The notes below the pieces were generated by a model. That model saw only the letters and a list, made by a program, of their open reading frames with translations, made no database searches and was not told the DNA's origin. This document shows, piece after piece, positions 7,606 through 26,647 of a stretch of DNA of 64,000 nucleotides. The translations under genes and the position numbers were made by a program. This stretch comes from Advenella alkanexedens (GTDB taxonomy: Bacteria; Pseudomonadota; Gammaproteobacteria; Burkholderiales; Burkholderiaceae_B), in assembly GCF_019132845.1 (NCBI RefSeq), contig NZ_JAHSPR010000002.1, forward strand, positions 124,001 to 188,000, written 5' to 3'. Position 1 is the first letter of the stretch. Each line of letters opens with the position of its first letter.

Positions 7606-8406
7606 GTGGTCTTTACACAAATGATACACGCCGTATGGAACTACAGGGGTTTCATCAAGGGGAGCGTGAAACGGGAATTCCAGTCCAAATACAGGAATTC
7701 ACTTTTAGGTGCGGCATGGATGGTATTGAATCCGCTGGCAATGATTATTGTCTATACCGTCATCTTTTCCCAGATTATGCGTGCCCGCTTGCCCGGCGTG
7801 GATTTTCCTTATGCATACAGTATTTATTTATGTGCAGGTGTCCTAACCTGGGGACTATTTTCTGAAATAGTCAGCCGTTCACAAAATGTATTTTTGGATA
7901 ATGCGGGTTTATTGAAAAAGTTGAGTTTTCCGAGGTTATGCCTGCCGGTTATTGTGATTGTGAACGCTGTGCTTAACTTCACTATCGTGTTCACCCTTTT
8001 TACGGCTTTTCTTCTGATTACAGGACAATTTCCGGGAATTTATTTTTTGGGTGTATTTCCTGTTTTGATGCTGCTGGTGCTATTTGCCATTGGCTTGGGT
8101 ATGACGGTTGGTGTCTTGAATGTTTTCTTTCGTGATGTGGGTCAGTTCTTTGGAATTGTTTTGCAGTTCTGGTTTTGGCTTACACCTATTGTGTATGTCG
8201 CCAATATCTTGCCACAGTGGGCGCAGAATTATTTGCAACTCAACCCGATGACGCCAATTGTGCAAGCTTTTCAAACAATCCTGGTTCATGCTCAATGGCC
8301 TGACTGGGGTTCGTTGTGGTTAGTGGGAGTTGAGGCGTTGATTTTGTGTTTTATGGGATTGAACTTATTCCGTAAACACGCCGGTGACATGGTGGACGAA
8401 CTGTAA
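7606..8406 (+). CDS. wzm: O-antigen ABC exporter permease
   Basis: A 266-residue ABC-2 type permease with six hydrophobic helices, the inner-membrane channel for undecaprenyl-PP-linked glycan. The N-terminal cytosolic part REFQSKYRNSLLGAAWMVLN is the usual amphipathic/gate-helix segment of Wzm/TagG proteins. A GTG start at 7606 is supported by AAGGA eight bases upstream. The stop overlaps the wzt start as TAATG, a translational-coupling arrangement. Confidence 0.93.
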   Translation: MVFTQMIHAVWNYRGFIKGSVKREFQSKYRNSLLGAAWMVLNPLAMIIVYTVIFSQIMRARLPGVDFPYAYSIYLCAGVLTWGLFSEIVSRSQNVFLDNAGLLKKLSFPRLCLPVIVIVNAVLNFTIVFTLFTAFLLITGQFPGIYFLGVFPVLMLLVLFAIGLGMTVGVLNVFFRDVGQFFGIVLQFWFWLTPIVYVANILPQWAQNYLQLNPMTPIVQAFQTILVHAQWPDWGSLWLVGVEALILCFMGLNLFRKHAGDMVDEL

Positions 8407-9626
8407 TGGGAACAATCACAGTAAATAATCTTGGCAAGGCTTATAAACAATATAAAACGCGCTGGTCCAGATTGGCAGAATGGGTGCTGCCGGGAAAACG
8501 TAAATATCATGACCTGAAATGGGTGCTGCGAGACATTAGTTTTAATGTTGGGGCGGGTGAAGCGGTTGGGATAATCGGTATTAACGGTGCAGGTAAAAGT
8601 ACATTGCTAAAGATGATTACCGGCACCACTCAACCTACTACGGGCAGTATTAATATTGCCGGGCGTGTGGCAGCTTTGCTGGAACTTGGCATTGGGTTTC
8701 ATCCAGATTTTACCGGACGGCAAAATGTATATATGGCCGGGCAATTAATCGGGTATTCCGTAGAGGAAATTTCCAGTTTGATGCCGGCCATAGAGGCTTT
8801 TGCCGAGATTGGTGATTATATTGACATGCCGGTTCGGGTTTACAGCAGTGGCATGCAAATGCGTCTGGCATTCAGTGTTGCTACCGCGAAGCGACCTGAT
8901 ATCTTGATTATTGATGAGGCCTTGTCGGTGGGGGATGCCTACTTTCAGCACAAGAGTTTTGATCGGATTCGTGAATTTAATGGGCAGGGCACAACCTTGC
9001 TGATTGTCAGTCATGATAAAGCGGCCATTCAGAGTATTTGTGATAAAGCGATACTCTTAAACGCGGGACGAATGGCAATGGAAGGGAAGCCAGAGGCAGT
9101 GATGGATTATTACAATGCATTGCTTGCCGATAAAGAAGGTACTAAAGTTGAGCAAAAAATCCAGAAAAATGGAAAAATTCAGACCGTCTCAGGTACCGGG
9201 GAGGTTACCGTTACGGAAGTTCTGTTGCTAAACGAGGCGGGACAGGCTGTTGAAGCGATTGAAGTAGGCCAGAATGTTGTTTTGCAAGTGACGACGACCG
9301 TTCATAAGCCGGTTTCCAGGTTGGTGTTGGGTTATGGTATTAAAGATCGGCTGGGCCAGGTAATGTATGGAACAAACACGCATCATACCCAACAAATTCT
9401 GGAAAATCTTGAAGCGGATAAACAGTGTGTTTTTAATATCAAATTCCCGGCGAATCTGGGACCAGGTACTTATTCTGTTCAGATTGCCTTGACAGGTGGG
9501 GTGACTCATCTTGAGCTGAACTATGAGTGGCGTGATTTGGCACTGATATTTGATGTGGTAAATACGTCCCGAATACTTTTTGCAGGTTCTTCATGGATAG
9601 AGCCTAAAATTGAGGTGGTGATGTAA
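8406..9626 (+). CDS. wzt: O-antigen ABC exporter ATPase with C-terminal glycan-binding domain
   Basis: A 406-residue ATPase partner of Wzm. The nucleotide-binding domain has Walker A GINGAGKST (about 58-66), ABC signature YSSGMQ (about 148-153) and Walker B ILIIDE (about 168-173). A further domain of about 140 residues (roughly 265-400) matches the layout of Wzt proteins with a C-terminal beta-sandwich. In E. coli O9a this domain recognises the modified non-reducing end before export. Having it here implies that the exported chain carries a terminal cap, presumably made by the next gene. The stop and the next start overlap as TAATG. Confidence 0.92.
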   Translation: MGTITVNNLGKAYKQYKTRWSRLAEWVLPGKRKYHDLKWVLRDISFNVGAGEAVGIIGINGAGKSTLLKMITGTTQPTTGSINIAGRVAALLELGIGFHPDFTGRQNVYMAGQLIGYSVEEISSLMPAIEAFAEIGDYIDMPVRVYSSGMQMRLAFSVATAKRPDILIIDEALSVGDAYFQHKSFDRIREFNGQGTTLLIVSHDKAAIQSICDKAILLNAGRMAMEGKPEAVMDYYNALLADKEGTKVEQKIQKNGKIQTVSGTGEVTVTEVLLLNEAGQAVEAIEVGQNVVLQVTTTVHKPVSRLVLGYGIKDRLGQVMYGTNTHHTQQILENLEADKQCVFNIKFPANLGPGTYSVQIALTGGVTHLELNYEWRDLALIFDVVNTSRILFAGSSWIEPKIEVVM

Positions 9627-10849
9627 TGGGAATCTTGTCTTACGCACAGAATTTTGAAGATGTCATGCTTTGGCGGGCATTGCGTCATATTGAAAACGGG
9701 TTTTACATTGATATTGGCGCCAATGACCCTGTTGTTGATTCTGTCAGTCTTGCTTTTTATGAGCATGGCTGGAGAGGGGTTCATGTTGAACCAACGCCGC
9801 AATATGCCGATAAATTACGCTCTTCAAGGCCTGATGAGCATGTAGAACAAGTTGCTATCGGCATGCAGTCCGAATCGATCATATTTTATGAAATTGAAGG
9901 TACGGGTTTATCAACGGTAAAACGTGAGGTTGCCGAGCAACATAGAAAAGATGGCTTTTCTGTTACAGAGACGAGGGTAGAAGTCATACCTTTAAGTGCG
10001 CTTCTTGAGCAGTATGATGAGCATGAAATTCATTGGCTTAAGATTGATGTCGAAGGACTGGAAAAGGAAGTCCTTGAAAGCTGGGCAGATGCACCGGCAC
10101 GTCCATGGATTTTAGTCATTGAAAGTACAAGACCTTCTTCAGCAGAGGTTAATTTCCAGGACTGGGAGGACATAGTACTGAAGAAAGGCTATATATTTGC
10201 GTATTTTGATGGACTGAATCGTTTTTATGTGCATGAGAAGCATAAGGACTTGTTTGCGTATTTTGAAACACCTCCTAATGTCTTTGACCAAGCTATTTTG
10301 AGTGGGACAGCTTCCAATTTTTTATGTGAAAATGTGTTGGGAATGCGCAAGCAGATTGAATCGAGGGCCATTAAGGCAGAAGCAGCGGTCATTAAGGCAG
10401 AAGCAAGGGCCATTAAGGCAGAAGCAGCTGTCATTAAGGCAGAGGCAACGATCAAAGAATTGGAAAACAGGATGGTGGAGAAAGAGGCTTATACCCAGAC
10501 TTTACTTGGGAGCACTTCCTGGAAAATAACAGCACCATTACGTTATACGGGTGAGCAGATAAAACGCTTTAAATCAAAAAGTATCCGGAACAGGATCAAG
10601 ATTTTTGTGGGCAAAACGGCGCATTATATTCTCAGGCGACCCCGGCTCAAACGAATGGCACTTTACATCCTGAATCGTTTTCCGGGACTCAAGGCTCGAA
10701 TATCCCGTTTAACGGCAGGCACCACCGGTATGATGCTTGTTCCGGCTCAATATGTACCCACAAAATTAATACAACTTACACCACGGGCACGTCATATTTA
10801 TCGTGACCTTAAAATTGCCATGGAACAGAATAATAAGGGGAACGATTAA
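9626..10849 (+). CDS. FkbM-family methyltransferase with heptad coiled coil, candidate chain terminator
   Basis: A 407-residue protein. Residues about 20-215 form an FkbM-type SAM methyltransferase domain (FYIDIGAND as motif I, then HVEPTP, and LKIDVEG further on). Residues about 240-295 form a charged helix built from four exact seven-residue units (AIKAEAA type), a textbook heptad pattern. After it comes the STSWKITAPLR segment often seen at the ends of polysaccharide enzymes, then a very basic tail suited to membrane contact. The order wzm-wzt-methyltransferase-large GT matches wzm-wzt-wbdD-wbdA of E. coli O9a. There, a methyl cap plus a coiled coil stops chain growth and sets length. A similar role here is inference. 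The start overlaps the wzt stop and the stop overlaps the next start. Confidence 0.85.
   Translation: MGILSYAQNFEDVMLWRALRHIENGFYIDIGANDPVVDSVSLAFYEHGWRGVHVEPTPQYADKLRSSRPDEHVEQVAIGMQSESIIFYEIEGTGLSTVKREVAEQHRKDGFSVTETRVEVIPLSALLEQYDEHEIHWLKIDVEGLEKEVLESWADAPARPWILVIESTRPSSAEVNFQDWEDIVLKKGYIFAYFDGLNRFYVHEKHKDLFAYFETPPNVFDQAILSGTASNFLCENVLGMRKQIESRAIKAEAAVIKAEARAIKAEAAVIKAEATIKELENRMVEKEAYTQTLLGSTSWKITAPLRYTGEQIKRFKSKSIRNRIKIFVGKTAHYILRRPRLKRMALYILNRFPGLKARISRLTAGTTGMMLVPAQYVPTKLIQLTPRARHIYRDLKIAMEQNNKGND
10367..10450 (+). repeat. Four tandem 21-bp units inside the FkbM gene
   Basis: Four near-identical 21-bp units, each starting GCCATTAAGGCAGAAGCA or GTCATTAAGGCAGAAGCA. One unit equals one seven-residue heptad, so gain or loss of a unit keeps the reading frame and changes only the length of the helix. 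Confidence 0.95.
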
Positions 10850-15039: not shown

Positions 15040-17067
15040 GTGATTAAGAATAAGAAAATATTGAATCATTTGGCACTTGGCGTGGCAGCAGCATTTCTTG
15101 CGATCAATATCGGTTTGCTTGTCTGGTATCTGTTTATTGAATATCAACCTGAGTTTCACTCTGATAGTGCGGTTAAGGTTTTACTTGCCAGAGAGATTTT
15201 TGATACCAAAGATTATTTTCCAAATGATTGGAATTATATAAATAATGATCTTTTTGTTTTTTTTGGACATACATTCATTATTCCGCTGCTCGGGTTCATG
15301 CCGGCCGGTTTTACCGTCCATGCTATTTCCGGTTTGATTTTTTCCGTACTGCTATTAAGTGCTATCTGGTTTATTTCAGGTATAACAAATTTAAGTCTTG
15401 CACGCCGTATTTTTATTGTGGCGGTTGCTGCAGCGGGTGTCTCCAGTTTTATGGCAGAAAATCTATATGGGCAGGTCAGTTATGGCTTTGATGTGACGGT
15501 TTGTTGCTATCTGATTGTGTTTGCATGGAAATTTTTTAAATCCAATGGAAAATTTGCGGTTGTATGGGGAGCGGTTTTCTTTCTTCTTGTGACGCTGGTG
15601 TATTGGGAAAATCCACAGAGAGCCACAATAAGTTACGGACTTCCTTTTTTAGCGGCAGTCTGTTGGTTGCTTTGGATGGGGAATGCTGTTGGTCGCCATA
15701 AGCTTTGGCAGGCGCTTGCCATATTCTTTATGGGTATTGGCATTGGTGCTTCGTTGCATTTCTATACTTTATCAGGCGTCATAAACATACTGACAGTGGG
15801 AAATGCGCTTTGGCTTCCCTATAAGCTGATGCTGAAAAATCTCAGCCTGGTGCCTCTGGGTGTTTTATCTATTTTTGGTGGTTTTCCAACGCCAGGCAAA
15901 CCTATGGTTAGTTCCACAGGCGTTTATGAAGCCTTACGGTTAGCGGTTGCCGTTATTACCACTTTATTGGTTCCATGGGCAGTTTATAAGGCTTTTCGTT
16001 ATGCTGACGACGGCATGAAATTCTTTGGCGGTTTTGCTGTCATGGCGTTTGCCGGGGTTTTCTTTATATATATTACGACGACCCTTGCAGATATGAGTGA
16101 CCCGGTTCAGAGTGCAAGGTATCTGGTGCCCTCCCTGTTTTTGGGCTTTATAACGTTATTAATGAGTCCTATAGACCGGGTCAGATCTCCACTTCCGGCA
16201 ATCGGCATGACCTTTATGATTGTTTTCTATCTTGTGAATGGTTATTTGGTTTATCACTCGTCGCCGAAGGAGCGGGCAGAGATGGCATGGGGGCAGCCAG
16301 GCCAATACCATATGCAGCTACAAGACCTTGTGGATTTTCTTGTTGCCAATAAGCTTGAGTATGGTTATGCCACATACTGGAATGCAGGTGTTGTGAGCGT
16401 TTTGAGTGATGAGAAATCATTGGTACGCCAGATATCCATAAAAAACGGGATTCCTGTTCCCGTGCGGCATTTGTCTTCTAACCGGTGGTACCGGCCCTCA
16501 GCGTGGCACGGAGAAACTTTCTTATTGCTGACCAATGAAGAGGCGAAGCATATTAAATGGGATGCCCTTGAGGCATATAATGTGGAACCCATCCGACATT
16601 ATGCAATCAAGGATTTCGAAATTTATGTTTTCAAGGATAATCTGGCCAATCATTTGCCAGGTTGGGATACTCGTTTTGAGACACCCTTTAAATTCGTGAT
16701 GAACGAGCATGCTTCAAAACAGATCGGGCATTTTGACAAGGAGGAACGTGTTCTCGTTGCCGAGCAGGGAGAGTCAGGTGCTTTGCATTATGGACCTTAT
16801 ATTAAGGTTGATCCAGGGCATTACAAGGTGAGTTTTGATATTTTGGCTGCCCATAATCCGGCCGGGGCTGTCAGGCTTGATGTGGTTGGCAACGAAGGTA
16901 AGATGTATGCCGAGACAATGCTGACAGCGAGTGAGCATCCTCAGCCCCTTTATTTCACACTTGATAAGGCACAGATAATGGAGTTCCGGGTATGGGCATC
17001 AGGTAATGAGCGTCTTGTGTTAAAAGGAATAACCATAGAACGCCTGCCATCGGCCAATGCCCAATAA
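15040..17067 (+). CDS. Large GT-C-like membrane protein
   Basis: A 675-residue protein with about eleven to twelve hydrophobic helices in the first 430 residues and a soluble C-terminal part with a beta-rich look at about 560-675. The first loop contains EFHSDSAVKVLLAREI, an acidic motif placed where GT-C polyprenyl-phosphate-sugar transferases hold their catalytic aspartate. Such enzymes transfer a sugar from undecaprenyl phosphate in the periplasm. The start is GTG at 15040, with AGGAAGG only three bases before it, a short spacing. The gene is the last in the plus-strand block, 63 bases after the GT4, and faces the minus-strand cluster. Acceptor and donor are unknown. Confidence 0.6.
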   Translation: MIKNKKILNHLALGVAAAFLAINIGLLVWYLFIEYQPEFHSDSAVKVLLAREIFDTKDYFPNDWNYINNDLFVFFGHTFIIPLLGFMPAGFTVHAISGLIFSVLLLSAIWFISGITNLSLARRIFIVAVAAAGVSSFMAENLYGQVSYGFDVTVCCYLIVFAWKFFKSNGKFAVVWGAVFFLLVTLVYWENPQRATISYGLPFLAAVCWLLWMGNAVGRHKLWQALAIFFMGIGIGASLHFYTLSGVINILTVGNALWLPYKLMLKNLSLVPLGVLSIFGGFPTPGKPMVSSTGVYEALRLAVAVITTLLVPWAVYKAFRYADDGMKFFGGFAVMAFAGVFFIYITTTLADMSDPVQSARYLVPSLFLGFITLLMSPIDRVRSPLPAIGMTFMIVFYLVNGYLVYHSSPKERAEMAWGQPGQYHMQLQDLVDFLVANKLEYGYATYWNAGVVSVLSDEKSLVRQISIKNGIPVPVRHLSSNRWYRPSAWHGETFLLLTNEEAKHIKWDALEAYNVEPIRHYAIKDFEIYVFKDNLANHLPGWDTRFETPFKFVMNEHASKQIGHFDKEERVLVAEQGESGALHYGPYIKVDPGHYKVSFDILAAHNPAGAVRLDVVGNEGKMYAETMLTASEHPQPLYFTLDKAQIMEFRVWASGNERLVLKGITIERLPSANAQ

Positions 17068-17098: not shown

Positions 17099-17476
17099 TT
17101 ATGTTCGGCTTGCTATGACAGTTCCCACAACAATTAGCACCATTCCTATGGTTTTGTTCATGGTTATCGGTTCATGTAGTAACCATGCACTGAGCAGTAA
17201 AACGATGACGAAATTCAGGCTCATGAAGGGATAGGCATAACTGAGTTCAAATTTCGTCATTGCCGCCATCCATGCCAGAGAAGCCAGGAACGCGGCAAAA
17301 AAGCCGGAAAAGATAGCCGGGTCAAATACGGCCATGATGAGAAACTTGAGTTTCGCAGCAGATGCGACAGGCATCTCACCCAGTTGTACCATTCGCCATT
17401 TAAGGATTAGCTGCCCATAGACGGTGAAGGCGATGGTCGCAAAAATGTAGAGGTGGTCAGTGAAACGAAATGGCAT
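17099..17476 (-). CDS. SMR/EamA-type small membrane protein, ArnE/ArnF-like
   Basis: A 125-residue protein with four hydrophobic helices. It has the EamA/SMR features YGQLILKWRM in helix 1 and SYAYPFMSLNFVIVLLLSAWLLHEP ahead of helix 4 (quoted in two parts: SYAYPFMSLNF and VIVLLLSAWLLHEP). ArnE/ArnF flip undecaprenyl-phosphate-aminoarabinose; a similar lipid-sugar flippase role is inferred from its operon. The frame extends to a TTG at 17524 that overlaps the upstream stop. The ATG at 17476 has AAAGGA at good spacing and yields the normal family length, so it is preferred. It is the last gene of the minus-strand block and converges with the 675-residue GT-C-like gene. Confidence 0.75.
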   Translation of the reverse strand: MPFRFTDHLYIFATIAFTVYGQLILKWRMVQLGEMPVASAAKLKFLIMAVFDPAIFSGFFAAFLASLAWMAAMTKFELSYAYPFMSLNFVIVLLLSAWLLHEPITMNKTIGMVLIVVGTVIASRT

Positions 17477-17520
17477 ATGGTTGATCCTTTGGATTTTGTT
17501 AAGCTTGTGGGGGAGGAAGT

Positions 17521-18468
17521 TCAATAAATGGTGAATTGGTTTGCCGGGTTAAAATGGCCGATGGTTTGAAAAGAGATTTTTCGCCCCAGGAGGGACGCTC
17601 TATCAATCATGTTAAGGATATTGTTGATGAGGGTTTCTTGTGAGTACGATACAAGTGGATGGCCCGGAGTGTTGCGTGATACCAGTTCATCAGGATGCAA
17701 AATAAGCACCATATAAGGTGCTGTTGCAATGAGTTCATTGAATCCCTGAGACCAGATATCAGTACCATAACAGGGGTTCAGGTAACGCAATAAGGCTACT
17801 GAATCGTAAGGAGCCAAAATGGGGGCGACTGACAGTGGCACTTCCAGTATGTCCATTGCGGGGTGCCCGGCAAGACGGTAGTCATCATGACAAGGATGGT
17901 AGGCAAATTGTGGCGTTTTTTGCCAATCCATGCACCAGCCAGCATCATGTTTCACCCGGCCAGGCAGGGCAGAGCTATCAAAGCGAATGCCCAGCTGATT
18001 GAGCACTTGCATGCTGGTATTATCATGGTAGCAATCCCCCATGCGGACACTGTTCAGAGTTGGCACAATGCTTCTAACAGCCTGGCAAGTGTTGAGCAGG
18101 TCTTCATACATGATCCCATTGGCCTGACCGGAAGGTAATTGTGGCATCCAGCCCAATTCATGCCCATCATCATGGATCAGTTTGCCCATGTTATCCAGGA
18201 AACGATTGATAATAGCGAGGCGATCACCGAACTGATGATGAATAAATCGATCAGCCCTGACAAACCAGGTGACTGGCAAAGCACGTTGTATCTGTTGTTC
18301 AAGGAAGGGAATGGTTTTGAACAGGGATTCAAGACCCTGGAAGGTGACTTCCCATGAAGGGGCTGCAGCATGACCATGACCCATTACCGCATCAGTGGGA
18401 CCAACATCAATAGTTAAGTAAACAGGCAGATCTTCAGGGGAAGAGTTGAGCCGGGTGGATATGCTCAC
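17521..18468 (-). CDS. Polysaccharide-deacetylase-like protein with altered metal ligands
   Basis: A 315-residue cytosolic-looking protein without a signal peptide. It keeps the NodB-type layout: an early acidic motif (YLTIDVGPTDA, where NodB has TFDDG), VTWFVRAD as the second strand, then DDGHELGWMPQLP. In active homologues the last motif usually carries histidines (GHE-x-GWHPHL type). Here those positions read M and Q, so the metal-binding histidines seem lost. LHPDEL near the C-terminus is kept. GTG start; it overlaps the methyltransferase stop by four bases. In an Arn-like scheme it would be the ArnD counterpart, but the missing ligands make true deacetylation doubtful. It may be a binding protein or use another mechanism. 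Confidence 0.65.
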   Translation of the reverse strand: MSISTRLNSSPEDLPVYLTIDVGPTDAVMGHGHAAAPSWEVTFQGLESLFKTIPFLEQQIQRALPVTWFVRADRFIHHQFGDRLAIINRFLDNMGKLIHDDGHELGWMPQLPSGQANGIMYEDLLNTCQAVRSIVPTLNSVRMGDCYHDNTSMQVLNQLGIRFDSSALPGRVKHDAGWCMDWQKTPQFAYHPCHDDYRLAGHPAMDILEVPLSVAPILAPYDSVALLRYLNPCYGTDIWSQGFNELIATAPYMVLILHPDELVSRNTPGHPLVSYSQETLINNILNMIDRASLLGRKISFQTIGHFNPANQFTIY

Positions 18469-19118
18469 GTTTTTCTTACCAAAATGGTGAAATCATAAAG
18501 TCCATAATCATGCAGTAATGCAACATTTCTGGCGTATTTGCGCTTGCAGATATCGAAGTAGAGGCAGGGATCCGCATAGTATAAATCATTCTTCAGTTTG
18601 TCTGGATCCGAGTAGGAAGTTAGCATATTGAATGCGAATCCATGACGACTGTATTGATCCAGGACATCAAGTGTATCAAGGATATATGCATGCCACTCGG
18701 TTGGTTCGAAGTCAAACCGCATGCCGAAAATTCCGCTGGCGACCGAGTAATCGGCAATTTCAATATCCGATAAATGGTGGAATTCAACCCGGTCATCGGC
18801 TGCGCTCATTTGTGCTCGGGCAGATGTGACCAACGCATTGTCTGAAATATCATAGCCACGATATTTAACAATATTGTTGTTGTCGGATAACATGTGCCAC
18901 AGGAAGCCATAACCACAGCCTACATCGTTGATCGTAATGCCTGTATCGGGCGCAGACGGTAAAATACGAAGCAGTTGTTCATAGCGGATAGATTGTGATT
19001 CTTCACCGTTCCAGCCAACACCCTGCGGGGAGATGGCGTGACGTTCAAGCTGGTCATTATTGAAGGTTTGGGCACGTTGAATAACAGACCGGTTCTGTTT
19101 CAGGTACTCGTTAATCAT
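18465..19118 (-). CDS. Class I SAM-dependent methyltransferase
   Basis: A 217-residue protein with a Rossmann-type methyltransferase core. Motif I is NDVGCGYGFLWHM at about 74-86, and GYDISDNAL follows as the acidic ribose-binding strand. The C-terminus ends in a beta-hairpin-like DYGLYDFTILVRKT, usual for this fold. It overlaps the GT2 gene upstream by eight bases and the deacetylase-like gene downstream by four, so it is embedded in a tightly coupled operon. Likely acceptor: the amino sugar or lipid-linked sugar made by the cluster (O- or N-methylation). This is inference. Confidence 0.75.
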   Translation of the reverse strand: MINEYLKQNRSVIQRAQTFNNDQLERHAISPQGVGWNGEESQSIRYEQLLRILPSAPDTGITINDVGCGYGFLWHMLSDNNNIVKYRGYDISDNALVTSARAQMSAADDRVEFHHLSDIEIADYSVASGIFGMRFDFEPTEWHAYILDTLDVLDQYSRHGFAFNMLTSYSDPDKLKNDLYYADPCLYFDICKRKYARNVALLHDYGLYDFTILVRKT

Positions 19119-20070
19119 AGTTCTTCCCTTGGTTGCTCAAGTGCTTACCTGGATATATTTCTTTGACGATCATGAGTGGGCGTTGTTTGGTTTCCGAGAA
19201 AACCTTGGCCAGGTAGATTCCGATTATTCCTATGAAAGAAATAATCAAGCCGCCAATCAGCCAGATAGACACCATGACCGAAGTCCAGCCTTCAAGTGAT
19301 GAATTAAAGAAAATACGGTTAAGGATAAGGTAAAACGCGAAGGCACTGGAAACCATGGCCATGATGGCGCCAAAATAAAAAATGCCAAGCAATGGGCGAT
19401 TGCTATAGGAAGTAATGGAGTCTATTAGCAGGGCGATTTTTTTACTTAGCGTGTATGTGGTCGGACTGTTGTCGTGCTTGGTGACGGGAAAGGCTTGCTG
19501 CTTGAAGCCCGTCAATACCCAAAGCGCAGCAATGTCTATTTCACGCTCCTTAAATTGAAGCAGTGCATCGACATATTTACGTGTCATCAGACGTGCGGTA
19601 ACCAGGTCAAAAGGCATTGGCAGACCCGTGAGAAGTCGGGTGGCTTGGTAATAAAGTCGCCCGCTTATTTTGGACATTAGATTGCCTCGACGTGAGGCTT
19701 GTACACCGTAAATGACATCACAGTTATCTTCGAACAGTTTTGGCCAGAACTGTAGGATCCATTCCGGTTCTTCTTCGAGATCGGAGTCGATCAGGAAAAT
19801 GTAATTGCCTGTTGCGTGACGTAATCCCGCCATCATTGCCTGGTGATGGCCGAAGTTTCTCGACAAGTCGACGAGAATAACATTTCCGAATCTGTCACAG
19901 CATTCCCTGGCGATTTCTGCAGAACGGTCCGGGGAACCATCATTGACCAGAATGATTTCAAAGGATTTGCCCAAGAGGCTCATGGCTGCATTCACACGCT
20001 CACAAAATTCAACTACGTAGTCCTGTGATTTATACATGGTTGCAACAATGGATATTTCAGGTACTGTCAT
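19111..20070 (-). CDS. GT2 undecaprenyl-phosphate sugar transferase, ArnC/GtrB/DPM1-like
   Basis: A 319-residue inner-membrane enzyme. The GT-A domain has ISIVATMYKSQDYV, LVNDGSPDRS and the metal-binding region FLIDSDLEEEPEW. Two C-terminal hydrophobic helices (about 235-260 and 270-300) are typical of ArnC and GtrB, which load a nucleotide sugar onto undecaprenyl phosphate. An ATG at 20091 also exists, but the ATG at 20070 lies one base after the ATP-grasp stop with GAGGA upstream and is preferred. The donor is probably the dTDP-amino sugar made by the aminotransferase in the same operon, possibly after acylation. Confidence 0.85.
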   Translation of the reverse strand: MTVPEISIVATMYKSQDYVVEFCERVNAAMSLLGKSFEIILVNDGSPDRSAEIARECCDRFGNVILVDLSRNFGHHQAMMAGLRHATGNYIFLIDSDLEEEPEWILQFWPKLFEDNCDVIYGVQASRRGNLMSKISGRLYYQATRLLTGLPMPFDLVTARLMTRKYVDALLQFKEREIDIAALWVLTGFKQQAFPVTKHDNSPTTYTLSKKIALLIDSITSYSNRPLLGIFYFGAIMAMVSSAFAFYLILNRIFFNSSLEGWTSVMVSIWLIGGLIISFIGIIGIYLAKVFSETKQRPLMIVKEIYPGKHLSNQGKNYD

Positions 20071-20071
20071 A

Positions 20072-21364
20072 TCAGTGGATATCCTCATCATTAACCAAGA
20101 CCTGGATAAGCTGATCCATGTCTTGCATCATTGAGATCATTTGATCCTGGCTGTCGAATGTCAGAATCAGACAGCCGAGCATGTCACTGCCCTGTGAAAA
20201 CCTTTGTACCTTTTCACCGGGTTTGACAAACATTTGTTCATTGACGATATGTGGCTGGATTTTTGGATCGTATTCAACACGTTCAAATATGCCTGGTTTT
20301 TTACTATGGACAGAATAGGTTGCGCTATAACGAAGCCATTGCCTTTCAAGTTGTACATCGTTACCCAGAGCAGACTCGACGGTTGCTGCGATCATATCGA
20401 CCCCGTAAGCATTGGCAATGGCTTCCGGCATCCGGTTGCCACCGTTACGGGGACCGATTTCAATAACAAATACTTCACCATTGGGCAGGTAAAACAAATC
20501 GAAATTAAATGGCCCCTGGCGCATGCCTAATGTACTGAAAATGTCCTGGAGGACGCCAACCGCTTTTTGCTCCTGTGCTTCACTTGCTGAACTGGGGAAG
20601 GTTTCACCAACGGGGGGTGATATACCAGGTGTAAAGTGTTCATCGGCAAATGCATGAAAGATAATTTTTCCATTATGCAAAAAACCTTCACCACAGATTT
20701 GATAGCCTATATAGGGAATCATCTCTTCAATAATGATGTCGCCACTTCTTGAGTTTTCAGCGGCAAGTGCCAGGGCATTTTGCAATTGTTCCTTTTCATG
20801 GACACGGTTAATACCCCTGCTACCACTGGCATCAACCGGCTTGATAATAAGGGGAAGATCCAGTTCTTCAAGAATCTTTGCAGGTAAGTCGGCTTCATTT
20901 TTCAAGCGCTCCTGATTTAAAATCAAGAACTTGGGAGTGAAGTGCTTTTTCTCTTTCTGAAATTGGCGGAATTTGCCTTTATCGGTCAAGGTGATGACGG
21001 CATTGTATGGGTTGCCATTCAGGCCCAGACGTTCGCTGACCCAGGCCGCGGTGGGAGCACCTACATCGGTACCATAGGCAATAACGGCATCAACTTCCTG
21101 CTCTTCGGCCTTATCGCAAATGTCTTGCAAAGCAGTTGTACTTATATCGTAAGAACAATCTGCCAGTTTGTGGCCTGGATTGTGAGGTCGATTATCACAT
21201 GTAATGATTTTAAACCCGGCTTGTCGTGCGTATTTGATCGGTGCCAGTTGTTGGGAGCTGGCACCAAGAAATAATATGGTTTTCGGTGATGAGTCGGATT
21301 TGTGTGTCTCGCTTGATACAGATACCACTGGGTCAGCCGTGCTTTTTGACCTGTGCCTCTCCAT
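20072..21364 (-). CDS. ATP-grasp ligase
   Basis: A 430-residue cytosolic enzyme. The first 120 residues form a PurK/PurT/CarB-like pre-ATP-grasp fold (ILFLGASSQQLAPIKYARQ). The ATP-grasp domain then has LPLIIKPVDASGSRGI, the IIEEMI strand, and the metal-binding pair in FNFDLFYLPNGEVFVIEIGPRNGGNR (residues quoted as FNFDLFYLPNGE and VFVIEIGPRNGGNR). The family forms an acyl-phosphate from a carboxylate and joins it to an amine. In this operon the obvious amine is the 4-amino sugar, so an N-acylation (formyl, aminoacyl or similar) is proposed. The true substrates are unknown. The gene starts 172 bases after wecE but is tightly linked to the GT2. Confidence 0.82.
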   Translation of the reverse strand: MERHRSKSTADPVVSVSSETHKSDSSPKTILFLGASSQQLAPIKYARQAGFKIITCDNRPHNPGHKLADCSYDISTTALQDICDKAEEQEVDAVIAYGTDVGAPTAAWVSERLGLNGNPYNAVITLTDKGKFRQFQKEKKHFTPKFLILNQERLKNEADLPAKILEELDLPLIIKPVDASGSRGINRVHEKEQLQNALALAAENSRSGDIIIEEMIPYIGYQICGEGFLHNGKIIFHAFADEHFTPGISPPVGETFPSSASEAQEQKAVGVLQDIFSTLGMRQGPFNFDLFYLPNGEVFVIEIGPRNGGNRMPEAIANAYGVDMIAATVESALGNDVQLERQWLRYSATYSVHSKKPGIFERVEYDPKIQPHIVNEQMFVKPGEKVQRFSQGSDMLGCLILTFDSQDQMISMMQDMDQLIQVLVNDEDIH

Positions 21365-21536
21365 GAAATGCTCCCCTCTAAAGTTGCATGGGTATTTGAT
21401 ATTGAATTATGTTGTTTTTTTCTAGTAACTTTTTTTACTTATTGTAGCGTATTTTGGCGTGTGTCTTTGCGTTAGGCTTCTCTGGGCAATACCGAGCTTG
21501 GGGGATCCGGGCATTTTGAGGTTCATGACGATAATA
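21365..21536 (-). promoter_or_regulatory. Gap inside the minus-strand cluster with a possible internal promoter
   Basis: These 172 bases separate wecE from the ATP-grasp gene, while all later genes in the block overlap or touch. The half nearer the ATP-grasp gene is AT-rich. Read on the minus strand it holds TACAAT as a -10-like hexamer, but no good -35. A 34-codon ORF near the wecE end has no recognisable features. A second transcription start for the ATP-grasp-to-SMR part is possible but unproven. Confidence 0.3.
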
Positions 21537-22676
21537 TCAACTTACTGCATCACATAAAACTTCAACAATCTTGTCTTGCTGCATGGTAGAAAGACCTACC
21601 CAAAGCGGTAATCGAATCAATTGTTCGGATTGACGAACAGTTACCTCGAGATCGCCATGTGTCTTACAGTACTTTAGGCCAGCGGGTGATGAGTGCAAGG
21701 GGATGTAGTGGAATACAGACAAAATTCCCTGTTGCTTTAATTTGGCTAAAACTTTCTGCCTGTCAATATCCGGTGCGATGAGCACGTAGTACATATGTGC
21801 GTTGTGCTGACAGGACTCAGGCACGACTGGACGACGTAGCACCCCTTTGGCCTCAAGCGTTTCAAGTTGACCGTGATAATGCTGCCAGCTTGCCAGCCGT
21901 TGGGTTGTGATACGTTCGGCTTCTTCAAACTGGGCCCATAGGAAAGCGGCGATCAACTCTCCTGGTAAAAATGAAGAACCTATATCTTGCCAGGTATATT
22001 TATCGATTTCTCCACGAAAGAAACGGCTGCGGTCCGTCCCTTTCTCACGGATGATTTCTGCACGCAGCTTCAAGTCAGGATCATTGACCAATAATGCACC
22101 GCCCTCTCCGGAAATGACATTTTTTGTCTCATGAAAGCTGTATGTCCCCAGATCACCAATACTGCCTAGCGCCCGTCCTTTGTAGTACGACATTAAGCCT
22201 TGGGCAGCATCTTCAACTACCCGAAGGTGGTGGCGTTTGGCAACTTCCATAATGGTGTCCATTTCGCAGGAAACACCGGCATAATGTACTGCGACGATGG
22301 CTCGTGTACGCGGGGTGATCGCTGCCTCAATGAGGGTTTCATCAATGTTCAAGGTGTCGTTTCGAATATCAACGAAGACAGGAACACCACCGCGAAGCAC
22401 GAAAGCATTGGCTGTTGACACAAAAGTATATGAAGGCATGATGATTTCATCACCAGGTTTAATATCCAGCAATAGCGCGGACATTTCTAAAGCAGCGGTG
22501 CAGGAGTGTGTGAGCAATGCCTTGGCTGTGCCGCTTTTTTGCTCTAACCAGGCGTGACAACGTTTTGTGAAGGGGCCATCACCGGCAAGGCTGCCATTAA
22601 GGTGTGCCTCTGCGATGTAATGAAGTTCTTTACCCGTCATATGGGGCCAATTGAACGGAACTTTCTGATTCATCAT
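21537..22676 (-). CDS. wecE: dTDP-4-amino-4,6-dideoxygalactose transaminase
   Basis: A 379-residue PLP enzyme of the DegT/DnrJ/EryC1/StrS family. It closely follows E. coli WecE (RffA): LLTHSCTAALEMSALLLDI, PGDEIIMPSYTFVSTANAF, the long block IDETLIEAAITPRTRAIV with HYAGVSCEMDTIM, VVEDAAQGLMSYYKGRALG, and the PLP-lysine segment SFHETKNVISGEGGAL. WecE transaminates dTDP-4-keto-6-deoxyglucose to dTDP-Fuc4N. The 4-keto precursor is made by RfbA and RfbB, encoded divergently 2-3 kb away. Two ATGs (22676 and 22673) follow AAGGAAGA; the second has better spacing. It would be the first committed step of the minus-strand pathway. Confidence 0.88.
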   Translation of the reverse strand: MMNQKVPFNWPHMTGKELHYIAEAHLNGSLAGDGPFTKRCHAWLEQKSGTAKALLTHSCTAALEMSALLLDIKPGDEIIMPSYTFVSTANAFVLRGGVPVFVDIRNDTLNIDETLIEAAITPRTRAIVAVHYAGVSCEMDTIMEVAKRHHLRVVEDAAQGLMSYYKGRALGSIGDLGTYSFHETKNVISGEGGALLVNDPDLKLRAEIIREKGTDRSRFFRGEIDKYTWQDIGSSFLPGELIAAFLWAQFEEAERITTQRLASWQHYHGQLETLEAKGVLRRPVVPESCQHNAHMYYVLIAPDIDRQKVLAKLKQQGILSVFHYIPLHSSPAGLKYCKTHGDLEVTVRQSEQLIRLPLWVGLSTMQQDKIVEVLCDAVS

Positions 22677-22737
22677 TCTTCCTTTTGTGATCTGCGTTAA
22701 TTATTGCTCATGACATTGCACTGAGCCGGCTTTACCC

Positions 22738-24360
22738 TTATTGAGACTTTTGGGTATTACAACGGCGCCAACTAAGATGAATGTGGCCATATTGCTGGCT
22801 GACAAGCTCTTCCAAATCCCCATCAAAATGTTCTTTGCAGTAAATGGCGAGCAGATCAAACAGGGGTTTGTCAGCAATAATAGGAACACCCTCTTTGGAA
22901 ATCAGTCGCGCAATCATGCCTGTACCGTTTTTTTCTTCAAGAAATGCCCGTGAAAATGGCGCAAGAGTATCTGTTCCCAGACTGTAATGCTGGTATTTCA
23001 TGGCAGACTCTGATTGTTTTAGAACCGGATAAACATTTTCATAAGGAAATGCTAGCCCCCATGTTATAACGGTATGATCCGGGAAACCAGATAGATTCTC
23101 GCGGATTGATTCTGAGTACAGTTGTGCAGCCTTGGAATCAGAGAAAACTTGTATGGTGTTGAAGATTGCTGCTACTACGATCACTACTTGTGCAAAGTAC
23201 CAAGATAATCGCTTGTTTATGTGGTTGGTATTGTGCTCAAGGAAGGGGGCAATTAACATTAAAGCCAACACAGGAATATAAACTCGCAGAATACCGGGTC
23301 GACCAAGCATGCCTAATGCAAATAGGGCCATAAGACAAAGTACCCAAGTTATGAATAGCTTTCGACTTGGTAATATGAAAAACAATAATATGGCTGTCAA
23401 AACGCCAGGTAGCAAAACAGGGTGCGCAAGCGCCTGAATACCTTCCCAACCATTGTTGAGTGAGTTGGGTTGGGCTGCGAGAGGACCCAGTTCGGCTAGC
23501 ATTGCATTTAATGCGGTCGGATTTGCAATAGTCGGATCAGCAAAGAACCATGCTTGAATTAAAGAAATATCGTTCGTACTGTAACTATGTCGTGACAGAA
23601 TTTCCGGATGCTGATTGAGTTGAACGGCCGCGCCAAAATCCGTAAACGGTACACGGGCAGGGTCTAATGCGTTGAATGCCTGCCATTCACTGCCTTGGTA
23701 TGCTTGATAGTCTATAAAGGTGGCAATGCTGATGGCCAGTAAAAGACCGATTGCAGCAGCTTGTGCTGTCCTGTCTTTAAGTAATTTTGACCAGGGCAGG
23801 AATGGTAATGCAATGAGTATGATCAGTAAGAACTCATGATTACGCACAAGGTAACTGCAGAATGCAAGAACACAGCCCGCTGACAAGGCATATTTGTTTT
23901 CCTGTTGTTCATAAAGAGACCAACATGCAATTGCTGCTACAGCAAGCAGGCCGGCATTAATGGTAAATTGAGGGAAAAGGACAGGGCGTACAAGTAAAAA
24001 TAATATTACGAATAGAGATACCAGCCAGCCAATTCCAAATTGGCGTAATACGAATAATATGGCCGTTCCTATTCCGACCAGCGTACCGAGGGTGATGATG
24101 GAATACCCTAATATCCCATTTATTTGAGGGATGGCACGAACAAGATAGCCCCAGACAACATTGGAAAAAACCAAAGTTGGTGAACTTACTGCGGCAAACC
24201 CATAGCCGTGAGCCACCATTGACATGCCGATATCATCGTTTGTATTCCAATATGGCTCAAAGAAAAAACAAAGAATAGATACAAATATTAAGGAAATTAA
24301 AAAAGCCCATAAAATCCGCGAGCTTTTTTGAGACAGGGAAAATCTACTTGCATTGACCAC
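22738..24360 (-). CDS. Polytopic membrane protein, candidate GT-C transferase
   Basis: A 540-residue protein with about eleven hydrophobic helices over the first 400 residues and a soluble tail. After helix 1 it has PYWNTNDDIGMSMVAHGYG, a paired-aspartate motif in the first outer loop. GT-C enzymes hold their catalytic acid there. It has no closer family signature that I can name. GTG start, with AAGGA about 14 bases upstream and a good minus-strand promoter 27-55 bases upstream. It is the first gene of the block. In an Arn-like scheme it would be the ArnT counterpart that moves the lipid-linked sugar to its periplasmic acceptor. A role as flippase or polymerase is also possible. Confidence 0.55.
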   Translation of the reverse strand: MVNASRFSLSQKSSRILWAFLISLIFVSILCFFFEPYWNTNDDIGMSMVAHGYGFAAVSSPTLVFSNVVWGYLVRAIPQINGILGYSIITLGTLVGIGTAILFVLRQFGIGWLVSLFVILFLLVRPVLFPQFTINAGLLAVAAIACWSLYEQQENKYALSAGCVLAFCSYLVRNHEFLLIILIALPFLPWSKLLKDRTAQAAAIGLLLAISIATFIDYQAYQGSEWQAFNALDPARVPFTDFGAAVQLNQHPEILSRHSYSTNDISLIQAWFFADPTIANPTALNAMLAELGPLAAQPNSLNNGWEGIQALAHPVLLPGVLTAILLFFILPSRKLFITWVLCLMALFALGMLGRPGILRVYIPVLALMLIAPFLEHNTNHINKRLSWYFAQVVIVVAAIFNTIQVFSDSKAAQLYSESIRENLSGFPDHTVITWGLAFPYENVYPVLKQSESAMKYQHYSLGTDTLAPFSRAFLEEKNGTGMIARLISKEGVPIIADKPLFDLLAIYCKEHFDGDLEELVSQQYGHIHLSWRRCNTQKSQ

Positions 24361-24678: not shown

Positions 24679-25773
24679 ATGAGTATTATGATAAATCGAA
24701 AAATCTTAGTTACTGGTGGTGCCGGATTCATTGGGTCGGCGGTTGTACGGCATATTATCAATAACACAAACGACACCGTCATTAATATTGATAAACTGAC
24801 TTATGCTGGTAATTTGGATTCGGTTGCTGCGGTACAAAACAATCCGCGCTACCATTTTGAGCAGGTTGATATTTGTGATGCCGAAAAGATTAATGCCATT
24901 TTTAAACAATATCAGCCAACGCATATTATGCATTTGGCCGCTGAAAGTCATGTTGACCGTTCAATTGACGGACCGGGTGTTTTCATCCAGACTAATATAG
25001 TGGGCACTTATACATTACTTGAGGCAACACGCTCATACCTGTCCAGTGTGACGGATGAAGTCAAGAGTAACTTCCGCTTTCATCATATTTCTACCGATGA
25101 GGTGTATGGCGACTTGCATGGTACGACAGACCTTTTTGTCGAAGATACACCCTATTCACCCAGTAGCCCTTATTCCGCCTCCAAGGCATCCAGTGATCAT
25201 CTGGTAAGGGCGTGGGGGCGGACTTTTGGTTTACCTGTTTTAATTACCAATTGCTCAAATAATTATGGTCCCTATCATTTTCCTGAAAAACTGATTCCCC
25301 TGATTATTCTAAATGCCCTGAGTGGCAAGTCATTGCCCGTTTACGGAAAAGGTGAGCAAATACGGGATTGGTTATATGTTGAGGATCATGCAGAGGCGCT
25401 TTATTCCGTCATGACCCAGGCGCAGACTGGTAAAACTTACAATATTGGCGGTCATAACGAAAGAAAAAACATTGAGGTCGTGAAAGCGGTTTGTTCCTTA
25501 CTGGAACAGTTGAGGCCAGTAGTCAATAATCCGCATACGCAACATATCGCTGCCTACACGGATTTAATTACTTATGTGCAGGACCGCCCCGGTCACGATG
25601 CACGTTATGCCATCGACGCAAGTAAAATTCAACGGGAATTGGGTTGGCAACCCAAAGAGACGTTTGAAACCGGTTTACGGAAAACGGTTCAATGGTATCT
25701 GGATAATGAGGACTGGTGGCAACGCGTCAAAGCGGGAACCTATCAGCAACAACGTTTAGGCTTGGGAAAATAA
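24679..25773 (+). CDS. rfbB: dTDP-glucose 4,6-dehydratase
   Basis: A 364-residue extended SDR that makes dTDP-4-keto-6-deoxy-D-glucose with bound NAD. It has TGGAGFIG at residues 12-19, the catalytic [11 protein letters not shown] segment and [10 protein letters not shown] with the Y-x3-K at about 165-169. An in-frame ATG at 24688 is an alternative start. rfbA follows one base after the stop. The product can feed WecE (Fuc4N) or RfbC. Only part of an rhamnose pathway is present, because no rfbD was found in the window. Confidence 0.96.
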
Positions 25774-25774
25774 T

Positions 25775-26647
25775 ATGACAAAAGGAATTGTTTTAGCGGG
25801 TGGTTCAGGAACAAGGCTATATCCTATAACGAAAGGTGTATCAAAGCAGTTGTTACCTGTTTATGATAAGCCTATGGTGTATTACCCTTTGTCAGTGCTC
25901 ATGCTGGCTGGTATCAGAGACATTTTAATTATAAGTACGCCCGAGGATATGCATGGGTATAAGCGTTTGTTGGGTGACGGATCCGATTATGGGATTAATC
26001 TCAGTTATGCCATTCAACCCAGTCCCGATGGTTTGGCGCAGGCATTTATTATTGGTGAAGAATTTATCGGGAACGAGAGTGTCTGTCTGGTACTGGGGGA
26101 CAATATTTTCTTTGGTGAGGGTTTTGGTAATAAGCTGGAGCAAGCCGTAGGGCGTAAAGAAGGTGCTACGGTATTTGGCTATCATGTTCAGGATCCGGAA
26201 CGCTTTGGAGTGGTTGAATTTGATGAGAACTTTAAAGCCATCTCTATCGAAGAAAAACCGCTTCAACCCAAATCGAATTGGGCAGTGACGGGTTTGTACT
26301 TTTATGATAATCAGGTTGTTGACATCGCAAAAAATGTAAAGCCTTCTGCTCGTGGTGAGTTGGAAATTACTACCATTAATCAAATGTATCTGGAGCAGGG
26401 CACGTTAAACGTTGAATTGCTGGGGCGCGGTTTTGCATGGCTTGATACAGGAACGCATGGCAGTCTGATGGAGGCAGGACATTTTGTACAAACCATCGAG
26501 AACCGACAGGGTTTAAAAATAGCCTGTCTGGAAGAAATCGGTTACCGGAATGGATGGCTGTCCAGGGAAGAGTTAATGGAGAAAATCAAACCGTTGGCAA
26601 AAACAGGTTATGGGCAATATTTATTGAGTTTGCTGAATCAAGCTTAG
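25775..26647 (+). CDS. rfbA: Glucose-1-phosphate thymidylyltransferase
   Basis: A 290-residue cytosolic nucleotidyltransferase that makes dTDP-glucose. The N-terminus carries [20 protein letters not shown] and [11 protein letters not shown], the nucleotide and sugar-phosphate binding region. [19 protein letters not shown] is also standard. It starts one base after rfbB (TAATATG). Its stop codon directly abuts the stop codon of the convergent sugar transferase, with no base between. Confidence 0.97.

Follow-up and report, generated by a model that had tools for sequence, protein, structure and literature searches.

The window (the whole 64,000-nucleotide stretch analysed) carries seven minus-strand open reading frames (ORFs) between positions 24360 and 17099, and the ORF calls placed all of them at the coordinates and on the strand given by the first-pass annotation. 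The rfbB and rfbA genes, starting at 24679 and 25775 on the plus strand, are divergent from this block. The block and its relevant neighbours are as follows.

7606..9626, plus strand: Wzm-Wzt polysaccharide ABC exporter with a Wzt_C domain (PF01061, PF00005, PF14524)
15040..17067, plus strand: second GT-C-like membrane protein, 675 aa, labelled from the neighbours of its homologues; convergent with the SMR gene
17099..17524, minus strand: SMR/EamA-type predicted flippase of a lipid-linked sugar, 141 aa (EamA 37 bits, cut-off 28.2)
17521..18468, minus strand: distant NodB-like protein, 315 aa, most CE4 metal ligands apparently absent (weak match to a PF01522 protein)
18465..19118, minus strand: SAM methyltransferase, 217 aa (Methyltransf_12, below cut-off)
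19111..20091, minus strand: GtrB/ArnC-type polyprenyl-phosphate glycosyltransferase (GT2), 326 aa (PDB GtrB 5ekp, PF00535)
20072..21364, minus strand: ATP-grasp ligase, 430 aa, predicted to N-acylate the 4-amino group with an amino acid (ATP-grasp Pfams)
21537..22676, minus strand: WecE-type dTDP-4-keto-6-deoxyglucose aminotransferase, 379 aa (TIGR02379 656 bits, cut-off 434.85)
22738..24360, minus strand: GT-C-like membrane protein, 540 aa, candidate periplasmic transferase (PMT_2 E 2.9e-4, below cut-off)
24679..25773, plus strand: RfbB, dTDP-glucose 4,6-dehydratase (TIGR01181 514 bits, cut-off 365.1)
25775..26647, plus strand: RfbA, glucose-1-phosphate thymidylyltransferase (TIGR01207 518.1 bits, cut-off 360.65)

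Neighbouring ORFs overlap at four junctions, by 20 bases (ATP-grasp and GT2), 8 bases (GT2 and methyltransferase), 4 bases (methyltransferase and NodB-like gene) and 4 bases (NodB-like and SMR genes); these lengths come from mechanical calls, and true start codons may differ. The overlaps suggest that the genes form one operon. A scan for promoter-like sites (16, against 16.5 expected) and terminator-like sites (4, against 8.3 expected) gave counts at or below expectation and was dropped as evidence. All seven genes are syntenic in a congener (genome G254, locus L053) with 85-100% identity, and the order WecE, ATP-grasp, GT2, methyltransferase, NodB-like is kept in a Polyangiaceae record from another phylum (L156), where the SMR gene lies on the opposite strand. 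Because of this synteny and shared order, the block is more than a chance arrangement. The full set including the NodB-like gene is rare, and was found in the window, G254 and L156.

The GT2 matched GtrB best among PDB entries (5ekp, E 1e-47), with residues 11-318 aligned and the membrane part included, and ArnC (9hwj, E 1.6e-35) formed the second-best group. Profile searches gave PF00535 at 1.1e-28, 137.2 bits to the ArnC model NF007986 against a cut-off of 529, and similarity to PgfS. The 5ekp match predicts that the GT2 is the polyprenyl-phosphate glycosyltransferase of a three-component (Gtr-type) system. The position of GtrB D157, the proposed catalytic acid according to an excerpt of PMC4728340, is, as we read the alignment, occupied by Thr in the window GT2 and in three relatives (alignment A2), which counts against a Gtr-type reading. 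For the SMR protein ArnF was the best NCBIfam match (52.9 bits, cut-off 99), and ArnE scored 37.9 bits (cut-off 92); there is a single SMR gene in the block and no ArnE/ArnF pair. The methyltransferase fell below all cut-offs (best 28, against 30). The first-pass annotation had described the block as an Arn-like lipid-sugar modification system. Its proposal of lipid loading by the GT2 and flipping by the SMR protein is supported by the GtrB/ArnC-type and SMR/EamA family assignments; in other loci GtrA would do the flipping. Membership of the Arn pathway itself was rejected: the GT2 and SMR scores are below the Arn cut-offs, the aminotransferase is WecE, and neither the 540-aa membrane protein nor the NodB-like protein matched the ArnT or ArnD families in Pfam or NCBIfam.

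To follow the cassette across genomes, contigs were searched with a GT2 profile, and of 532 confirmed matches the best 80 were taken, giving loci from many phyla. Among these 80, WecE was present at E<1e-50 in 50 and not seen at that threshold in 30, some of which lie on truncated contigs; in one locus (L219) WecE reads as two pieces. The 50 WecE-bearing loci held as acylating gene WbqC (34), GNAT (5), ATP-grasp (5), both WbqC and ATP-grasp (1) or none (5), and as flippase SMR (17) or GtrA (16), with none seen in 17. A gene for a predicted small flippase, as expected of a Gtr-type system, is present in the window and in 33 of these 50 loci; homologues of the window SMR protein itself were found inside WecE-GT2 loci of other genomes. 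Immediate neighbours were read in 76 of the 80 loci, the other four being left out as their GT2 was not read as the best ORF. Directly upstream of the GT2 was WbqC in 36 of the 76 and ATP-grasp in three, one of which (L155, titled a Ruminiclostridium metagenome-assembled genome) repeats part of the window almost letter for letter and is probably mis-binned; it was counted among the 80. The methyltransferase followed the GT2 directly in 17 of the 76; in L109 and L112 the protein at this place is about 50% identical to that of the window. The run RfbA-RfbB-GT2-GNAT-SMR-WecE occurs in Halobacillus, Lentibacillus and three Virgibacillus records. Searches among relatives, which yielded hardly anything outside the window's own genome and G254, would have pointed to a one-off, and the GT2 profile overturned this for the core of the cassette but not for the NodB-like gene. 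The synteny check first proposed is thus little informative among relatives alone, but linkage of WecE, GT2, acylating gene and flippase in other genomes was borne out.

The proposed supply of precursor to WecE by RfbBA is supported by family assignment, RfbB, RfbA and WecE all scoring above curated cut-offs. RfbBA may additionally serve dTDP-L-rhamnose; rmlC is inside the window and rmlD elsewhere in the genome. WecE scored only 199.2 bits against the ArnB model NF008658 (cut-off 631), and matched PDB 6blg at E 1.4e-150. Compared with 6blg, its loop after HETKN is one residue shorter, which might alter the product. This loop was classed in WecE loci of a phylum sample (58 genomes, own genome set aside). 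Of 57 loci 51 could be classed, and six (L121, L131, L134, L135, L149, L150) were left aside because filtering of overlapping ORFs hid their WecE or its loop was not read. An ArnC/GtrB-like GT2 was present in the fetched stretch of 22 of 29 short-loop loci, against one of 22 with the E. coli enterobacterial common antigen (ECA)-type loop (Fisher p 1.8e-7, relatedness ignored); outside the dominant family f79 the short-loop count was 8 of 12. Among readable WecEs of the GT2-anchored loci (best 80 of 532), 43 of 46 had the short loop and three (L213, L217, L232) the long one. Judged from these sequences, the short loop is no strict marker of GT2 loci.

The ATP-grasp protein matched PF13535 and other ATP-grasp Pfams above cut-off, which places it in that fold family, and LAL_C2 below cut-off; its PDB matches were 4dim and the L-amino acid ligase 3vot. 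ATP-grasp genes also lie directly upstream of the GT2 in L156, L167 and L056, and in L167 (Verrucomicrobiota) the related protein also carries, as a fusion, a lysine-2,3-aminomutase-like (KamA-like) domain. This fusion and the 3vot similarity hint at the substrate, and the most likely role of the enzyme is to add a lasting amino acid. The first-pass annotation had put it in the place of the ArnA formyltransferase, as a possible N-acylating substitute. A transient protecting role of the formyl kind was rejected, because WbqC or GNAT substitutes for ATP-grasp in loci where the NodB-like gene is absent. Among 61 relatives, 51 had some ATP-grasp match, close only in the own genome and G254, the next by E-value being 22% identical; in the phylum sample one of 11 non-own matches (L056) lay within a WecE-GT2 cluster and the others elsewhere. 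In a tree of 19 sequences the window protein grouped with L156 (99/98), with L167 (97/91) and, at weaker support, with L056 and L196 (87/98). The same set took in L058 and L065, whose loci showed no such GT2, and ATP-grasps of other GT2 loci (L208, L211, L212; L183) fell outside it, so the slot has probably been filled by ATP-grasp proteins more than once.

'Deacetylase-like' proved the weakest label of the seven. A distant NodB link stood: one PF01522 protein matched at 27.8 bits, and hhalign gave 92% across the middle and C-terminal part. No Pfam family was matched at E<=1, and no NCBIfam model. By MAFFT alignment, in both the window and the L156 protein one Asp of motif MT1 is kept and the other absent, and both His of MT2 are absent (TIDVG and GHELGWMPQ in the window, TADIG and GHEVGWLPQ in L156); motif roles follow an excerpt of PMC10967932. 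The residues expected of a CE4/NodB deacetylase, an Asp and two His at the metal site and a catalytic Asp, were thus not recovered as a set, in an alignment that is uncertain because the profile matches span only the middle and C-terminal part. A single-sequence AlphaFold model (pLDDT 33.6) was uninformative on the fold. Relatives were scarce: the own protein and one weak short match in 250 genomes of the order, the own protein and one weak CE4 protein in a 398-genome phylum sample, none confirmed on viral contigs and none on plasmids. Deacylation of the ArnD type is therefore unsupported, given the missing Pfam match and the apparent absence of most metal ligands.

These observations bear on whether the block is a true Arn analogue, in which the ATP-grasp acyl group is temporary and is removed by the NodB-like protein after lipid loading, leaving free-amine Fuc4N on lipid A or core. 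The gene types do parallel ArnB, A, C, D, EF and T, ArnF and ArnC rank high among the SMR and GT2 matches, ArnT heads the structural matches of the 540-aa protein (below), and among the loci compared the NodB-like gene occurs only alongside ATP-grasp (window, G254, L156). Against this, the NodB-like protein appears to lack one MT1 Asp and both MT2 His, the GT2 and SMR protein miss the Arn cut-offs, and the block sits within a Wzm/Wzt polysaccharide locus. Moreover, the NodB-like gene was found in L156 only among the GT2 loci (best 80 of 532), and the other relatives would therefore be without this deacylase. We consider such an analogue very unlikely.

Transfer by a GT-C-like protein rather than a Wzx/Wzy type, as first proposed, agrees with the model of the 540-aa protein (pLDDT 69, medium confidence). 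Its eight leading Foldseek matches were GT-C enzymes (ArnT, DPY19, PglB, OST and EmbB, ArnT first), all of them weak (E>0.02, none at E<=0.001; TM 0.2-0.37 by query length). With this model and a sub-threshold PMT_2 match, the protein is a candidate GT-C. An N-D-D near the N-terminus is invariant in a six-sequence alignment, and homologues occur in L164, L175, L176, L188 and L199, loci that also hold the GT2. The 675-aa protein had no Pfam match at E<=1, and its homologues (E 1.6e-30 and 1.3e-40) adjoin WbqC-WecE-SMR in L217 and L232, which makes it a candidate alternative or additional transferase.

The adjoining locus contains, besides Wzm/Wzt, genes for GMP_PMI, Gmd, an initiating transferase of family PF02397 and one or more GT4-family proteins (10849-13833), and synteny with G254 extends over the whole Wzm/Wzt locus around the block. 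From this proximity the polysaccharide that Wzm/Wzt exports would be the most likely acceptor; lipid A in that role found no support. GT-C enzymes modify proteins too, and the sugar might instead be destined for a pilin, flagellin or S-layer protein, as PglB and DPY19 among the Foldseek matches and the PgfS similarity of the GT2 could suggest. The position of the block inside a polysaccharide locus conserved as a unit argues against this, and we think it distinctly improbable. Alternatively, a cytoplasmic transferase could use the WecE product in an ordinary repeat-unit pathway, the GT2, GT-C and SMR proteins serving another sugar; the GT4-family and initiating transferase genes would fit, as would RfbBA if it also feeds rhamnose. 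This is unlikely, since the GT2 belongs to the membrane-anchored GtrB/ArnC group and in many loci is found together with WecE, an acylating gene and a flippase.

We therefore favour, as probable, three-component periplasmic glycosylation of the Gtr type. The donor would be a 4-amino-4,6-dideoxyhexose, most likely Fuc4N, that bears an N-acyl group. A Gtr-type rather than an Arn reading is preferred because the scores of the GT2 and SMR protein fall well short of the cut-offs for ArnC and ArnF and because the core recurs with exchanged acylating gene and flippase. The family assignments, the tight packing of the genes and the recurrence of WecE, GT2, acylating gene and flippase are seen directly in the sequences; from them we infer every reaction and the sequence of steps, the stereochemistry of the sugar, its acyl group and its acceptor. 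RfbA and RfbB would produce dTDP-4-keto-6-deoxyglucose, which WecE would aminate at C4, and the ATP-grasp ligase would join the amine to an amino acid or similar carboxylate. The GT2 would transfer the sugar onto undecaprenyl phosphate, the SMR protein would flip it, and the 540-aa GT-C protein (or the 675-aa one) would attach it to the exported polysaccharide as a side branch. At some step the methyltransferase and NodB-like protein may act on the sugar or on its acyl group, by trimming or decoration. Similar predicted cassettes with a swapped acyl-adding enzyme occur in several bacterial phyla. More speculatively, and rather doubtfully when taken as one joint reading, these would form a phylum-crossing modular undecaprenyl-phosphate-Fuc4N class in which an exchangeable N-acyl slot (GNAT, WbqC or ATP-grasp) tunes surface polysaccharide charge; the ATP-grasp version would add an amino acid cap, which in one lineage would be a beta-amino acid supplied by the fused aminomutase-like domain. 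This cap would subsequently undergo methylation and perhaps cyclisation by a NodB-like protein that works without metal.

If the favoured reading is true, WecE (mostly short-loop), a GtrB-type GT2, WbqC, GNAT or ATP-grasp, SMR or GtrA, and a GT-C protein would be a genomic signature from which acylated 4-amino-sugar side branches could be predicted, and a testable function would be proposed for WbqC and for a subgroup of ATP-grasp proteins. Among the open-licence PMC papers that the literature searches listed, none was seen to describe a three-component system for Fuc4N.

The closest known parallels are the GtrA/GtrB/Gtr(type) and Citrobacter youngae pentofuranose systems, in which, according to an excerpt of Kelly et al. 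2024 (PMC11127046), a lipid-linked-sugar synthase, a small flippase and a GT-C enzyme modify the finished polysaccharide after polymerisation. The window differs in that the cassette's own genes would make and acylate its donor, a dTDP-derived 4-amino sugar, and in having an SMR protein as predicted flippase. The Arn pathway for Ara4N-lipid A likewise has an aminotransferase, an ArnC-like GT2, SMR proteins and a GT-C-like protein, and in both an amino sugar is predicted on undecaprenyl phosphate. The window, however, has WecE in place of ArnB, no ArnA in the block and no canonical ArnD-like residues, and its sugar would be different and its acceptor probably so. With WecE/WecD of ECA it would share the dTDP-Fuc4N branch, and a GNAT (L110) scored weakly against the WecD model (26.5 bits, cut-off 219). 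In ECA synthesis Fuc4N goes to Und-PP-linked lipid III, which is then handled by Wzx/Wzy; unlike the window, 21 of the 22 WecE loci with the ECA-type loop lacked the GT2. Also close to the window are WbqC (PF08889) cassettes such as those of L109 and L112, with WecE 68 and 76%, GT2 54% and methyltransferase 50% identical, the last also found in 23 of 47 WbqC-bearing loci (best 80 of 532). In these two cassettes a multi-TM protein and WbqC lie between WecE and the GT2, WbqC replaces the ATP-grasp ligase, and the NodB-like gene is absent.

ORF calling placed the seven genes of the minus-strand block, and the divergent rfbBA pair beside it, where the first-pass annotation had put them. As called, neighbouring genes in the run of five from the ATP-grasp gene through the SMR gene share 4-20 bases. 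The surface-polysaccharide locus of the window (G000:C13:124001-188000, from a 3.0-Mb genome) is syntenic in the congener G254, and the seven block proteins are 85-100% identical between the two. These were the only genomes of the genus (10 searched, including our own) with the GT2 at E<=1e-60. In the congener locus (L053), the polysaccharide deacetylase gene and rfbC are separated by an additional 253-aa gene (G254:C37:30286-31047) without counterpart among the window ORFs. A near-identical copy of rfbA-rfbB-GT-C-WecE-ATP-grasp-GT2 was found on a contig titled Ruminiclostridium sp. MAG (L155), which is probably mis-binned.

WecE, RfbB and RfbA exceeded their curated cut-offs, and the loop after HETKN in WecE is one residue shorter than in the related structure 6blg. 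The GT2 aligned over almost its whole length with GtrB (5ekp, E 1e-47) and more weakly with ArnC (9hwj, E 1.6e-35), and it retains the DxD motif. Asp157 (D157) is the proposed catalytic acid of GtrB, according to the available text of PMC4728340. An alignment of the window GT2 with three close relatives, read by eye, gave the following feature at that position.

19111-20091, minus strand: GT2, with Thr165 at the position of GtrB D157, and Thr also in the three relatives

Judging from these sequences, the Thr is possibly a subfamily feature. The closest PDB structures to the ATP-grasp protein were 4dim and the L-amino acid ligase 3vot, and the SMR protein resembled ArnF/ArnE with a score under the cut-off.

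The 540-aa GT-C-like protein matched PMT_2 weakly, and an N-D-D near its N-terminus was invariant in an alignment of six homologues. Its structure model was of medium confidence (pLDDT 69, pTM 0.69); the top eight Foldseek matches were all GT-C enzymes (ArnT, DPY19, PglB, OST, EmbB), with none of 166 matches at E<=0.001. A 675-aa protein (15040-17067), which looks like a membrane protein by eye, gave no Pfam match. Because its homologues adjoin WbqC-WecE-SMR in L217 and L232, the 675-aa protein could be an additional transferase of this type; the full row in L217, from Sulfurospirillum, is 675-type membrane protein, GT2, WbqC, WecE and SMR.

TIGR02379 scored over its cut-off in 58 of 398 phylum-sample genomes, and the neighbourhoods of the 57 others (own set aside) were compared. 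The loop class was readable in 51. An ArnC/GtrB-like GT2 (E<1e-20) was present in 22/29 short-loop loci, whereas only 1/22 loci with the enterobacterial common antigen (ECA)-type loop had one (Fisher p 1.8e-7, relatedness ignored). A single family, f79, accounts for 17 of the 58 genomes; without it the figures were 8/12 and 1/22. The GT2 was missing from seven short-loop loci, three of which (L114, L119, L120) are represented by short stretches of sequence.

Scanning genome contigs with a GT2 profile gave at least 592 matching stretches; at least 532 were confirmed, and the best 80 of these were kept. WecE (E<1e-50) was present in 50 of these best 80, with a short loop in 43, a long loop in three (L213, L217, L232) and four unread. 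The acylating gene in these 50 was WbqC (34), GNAT (5), ATP-grasp (5) or WbqC plus ATP-grasp (1), with none seen in 5; the flippase was SMR (17) or GtrA (16), with none seen in 17. Among the 76 readable loci of the best 80, the immediate upstream neighbour of the GT2 was WbqC in 36 and ATP-grasp in 3, and the immediate downstream neighbour was the methyltransferase (MT) in 17 and GNAT in 6. The exchange of one acylating gene for another next to a single type of GT2 argues for N-acylation of the 4-amino sugar by the ATP-grasp protein and for retention of the acyl group. Five records from Halobacillus, Lentibacillus and Virgibacillus (three) (L218, L219, L222, L225, L226) carry an unbroken RfbA-RfbB-GT2-GNAT-SMR-WecE run, a putative minimal Gram-positive version of the cassette; WecE reads as two separate parts in L219.

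The ATP-grasp gene lies immediately before the GT2 in the window/G254/L155 group and in L156 (Polyangiaceae), L167 (Verrucomicrobiota) and L056, whose ATP-grasp proteins are 55%, 32% and 27% identical to that of the window. Matches at E<=1e-15 occurred in 12/398 genomes and, without our own, 1/11 (L056) was in a WecE-GT2 cluster; most relatives are located outside such clusters, which counts against an ATP-grasp lineage dedicated to them. At the WecE-GT2 locus of the Verrucomicrobiota MAG, one 792-aa ORF (L167:6508-8886) joins the ATP-grasp to a KamA/lysine-2,3-aminomutase-like radical SAM domain (TIGR03822, 1.2e-34, 119.9 bits, cut-off 396), and this fusion points to an amino acid as the ATP-grasp substrate. 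Elsewhere among glycan loci, an Amidohydro_2 gene adjoins the ATP-grasp gene in L060, L063 and L211 and shares its locus in L183; a methyltransferase similar to the window MT also adjoins it in L063. A plasmid search returned a 36% identical ATP-grasp on Brachyspira hyodysenteriae plasmids, the listing annotating a radical SAM/SPASM protein under the match.

The NodB-like protein gave no Pfam family at E<=1, and among the compared loci its gene was confined to the window, G254 and L156. A two-sequence profile matched one PF01522 protein in 2557 ORFs of the compared loci (L067, 27.8 bits; hhalign probability 92%), both matches spanning the middle and C-terminal part only. CE4 enzymes hold their metal by an Asp and two His (available text of PMC10967932). 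The MAFFT-aligned motif positions read TIDVG/GHELGWMPQ in the window, TADIG/GHEVGWLPQ in L156 and SVDVD/GHEIALHGEHH in L067, so that, with the N-terminal correspondence set by alignment and eye rather than by a scored profile match, the first two retain one Asp and apparently lack the second Asp and the two His. A metal-dependent, ArnD-type deacylation by this protein is unsupported. The same text records one NodB-fold enzyme that works without metal, and other chemistry is therefore possible.

We infer all reactions of the proposed pathway. Neighbouring genes encode GMP_PMI, Gmd, a GT4-family enzyme, and the exporter proteins Wzm and Wzt, the latter carrying a Wzt_C domain; an ABC-transporter-exported polymer is therefore at hand as the likeliest acceptor. 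Lipid A is without support in this role. N-acetylglycyl and hydroxybutyryl-alanyl groups are reported on Qui4N in the available text of PMC3210612, and an amino-acyl cap therefore has precedent among 4-amino-4,6-dideoxyhexoses. Literature searches confined to open-licence PMC papers listed no description of a Fuc4N three-component system of this kind. As set out in the available text of PMC11127046, three-component systems comprise a lipid loader, a flippase and a GT-C enzyme; the window set, with its candidate GT-C protein, matches this concept, and is probably a three-component glycosylation system carrying its own acyl-aminosugar branch.
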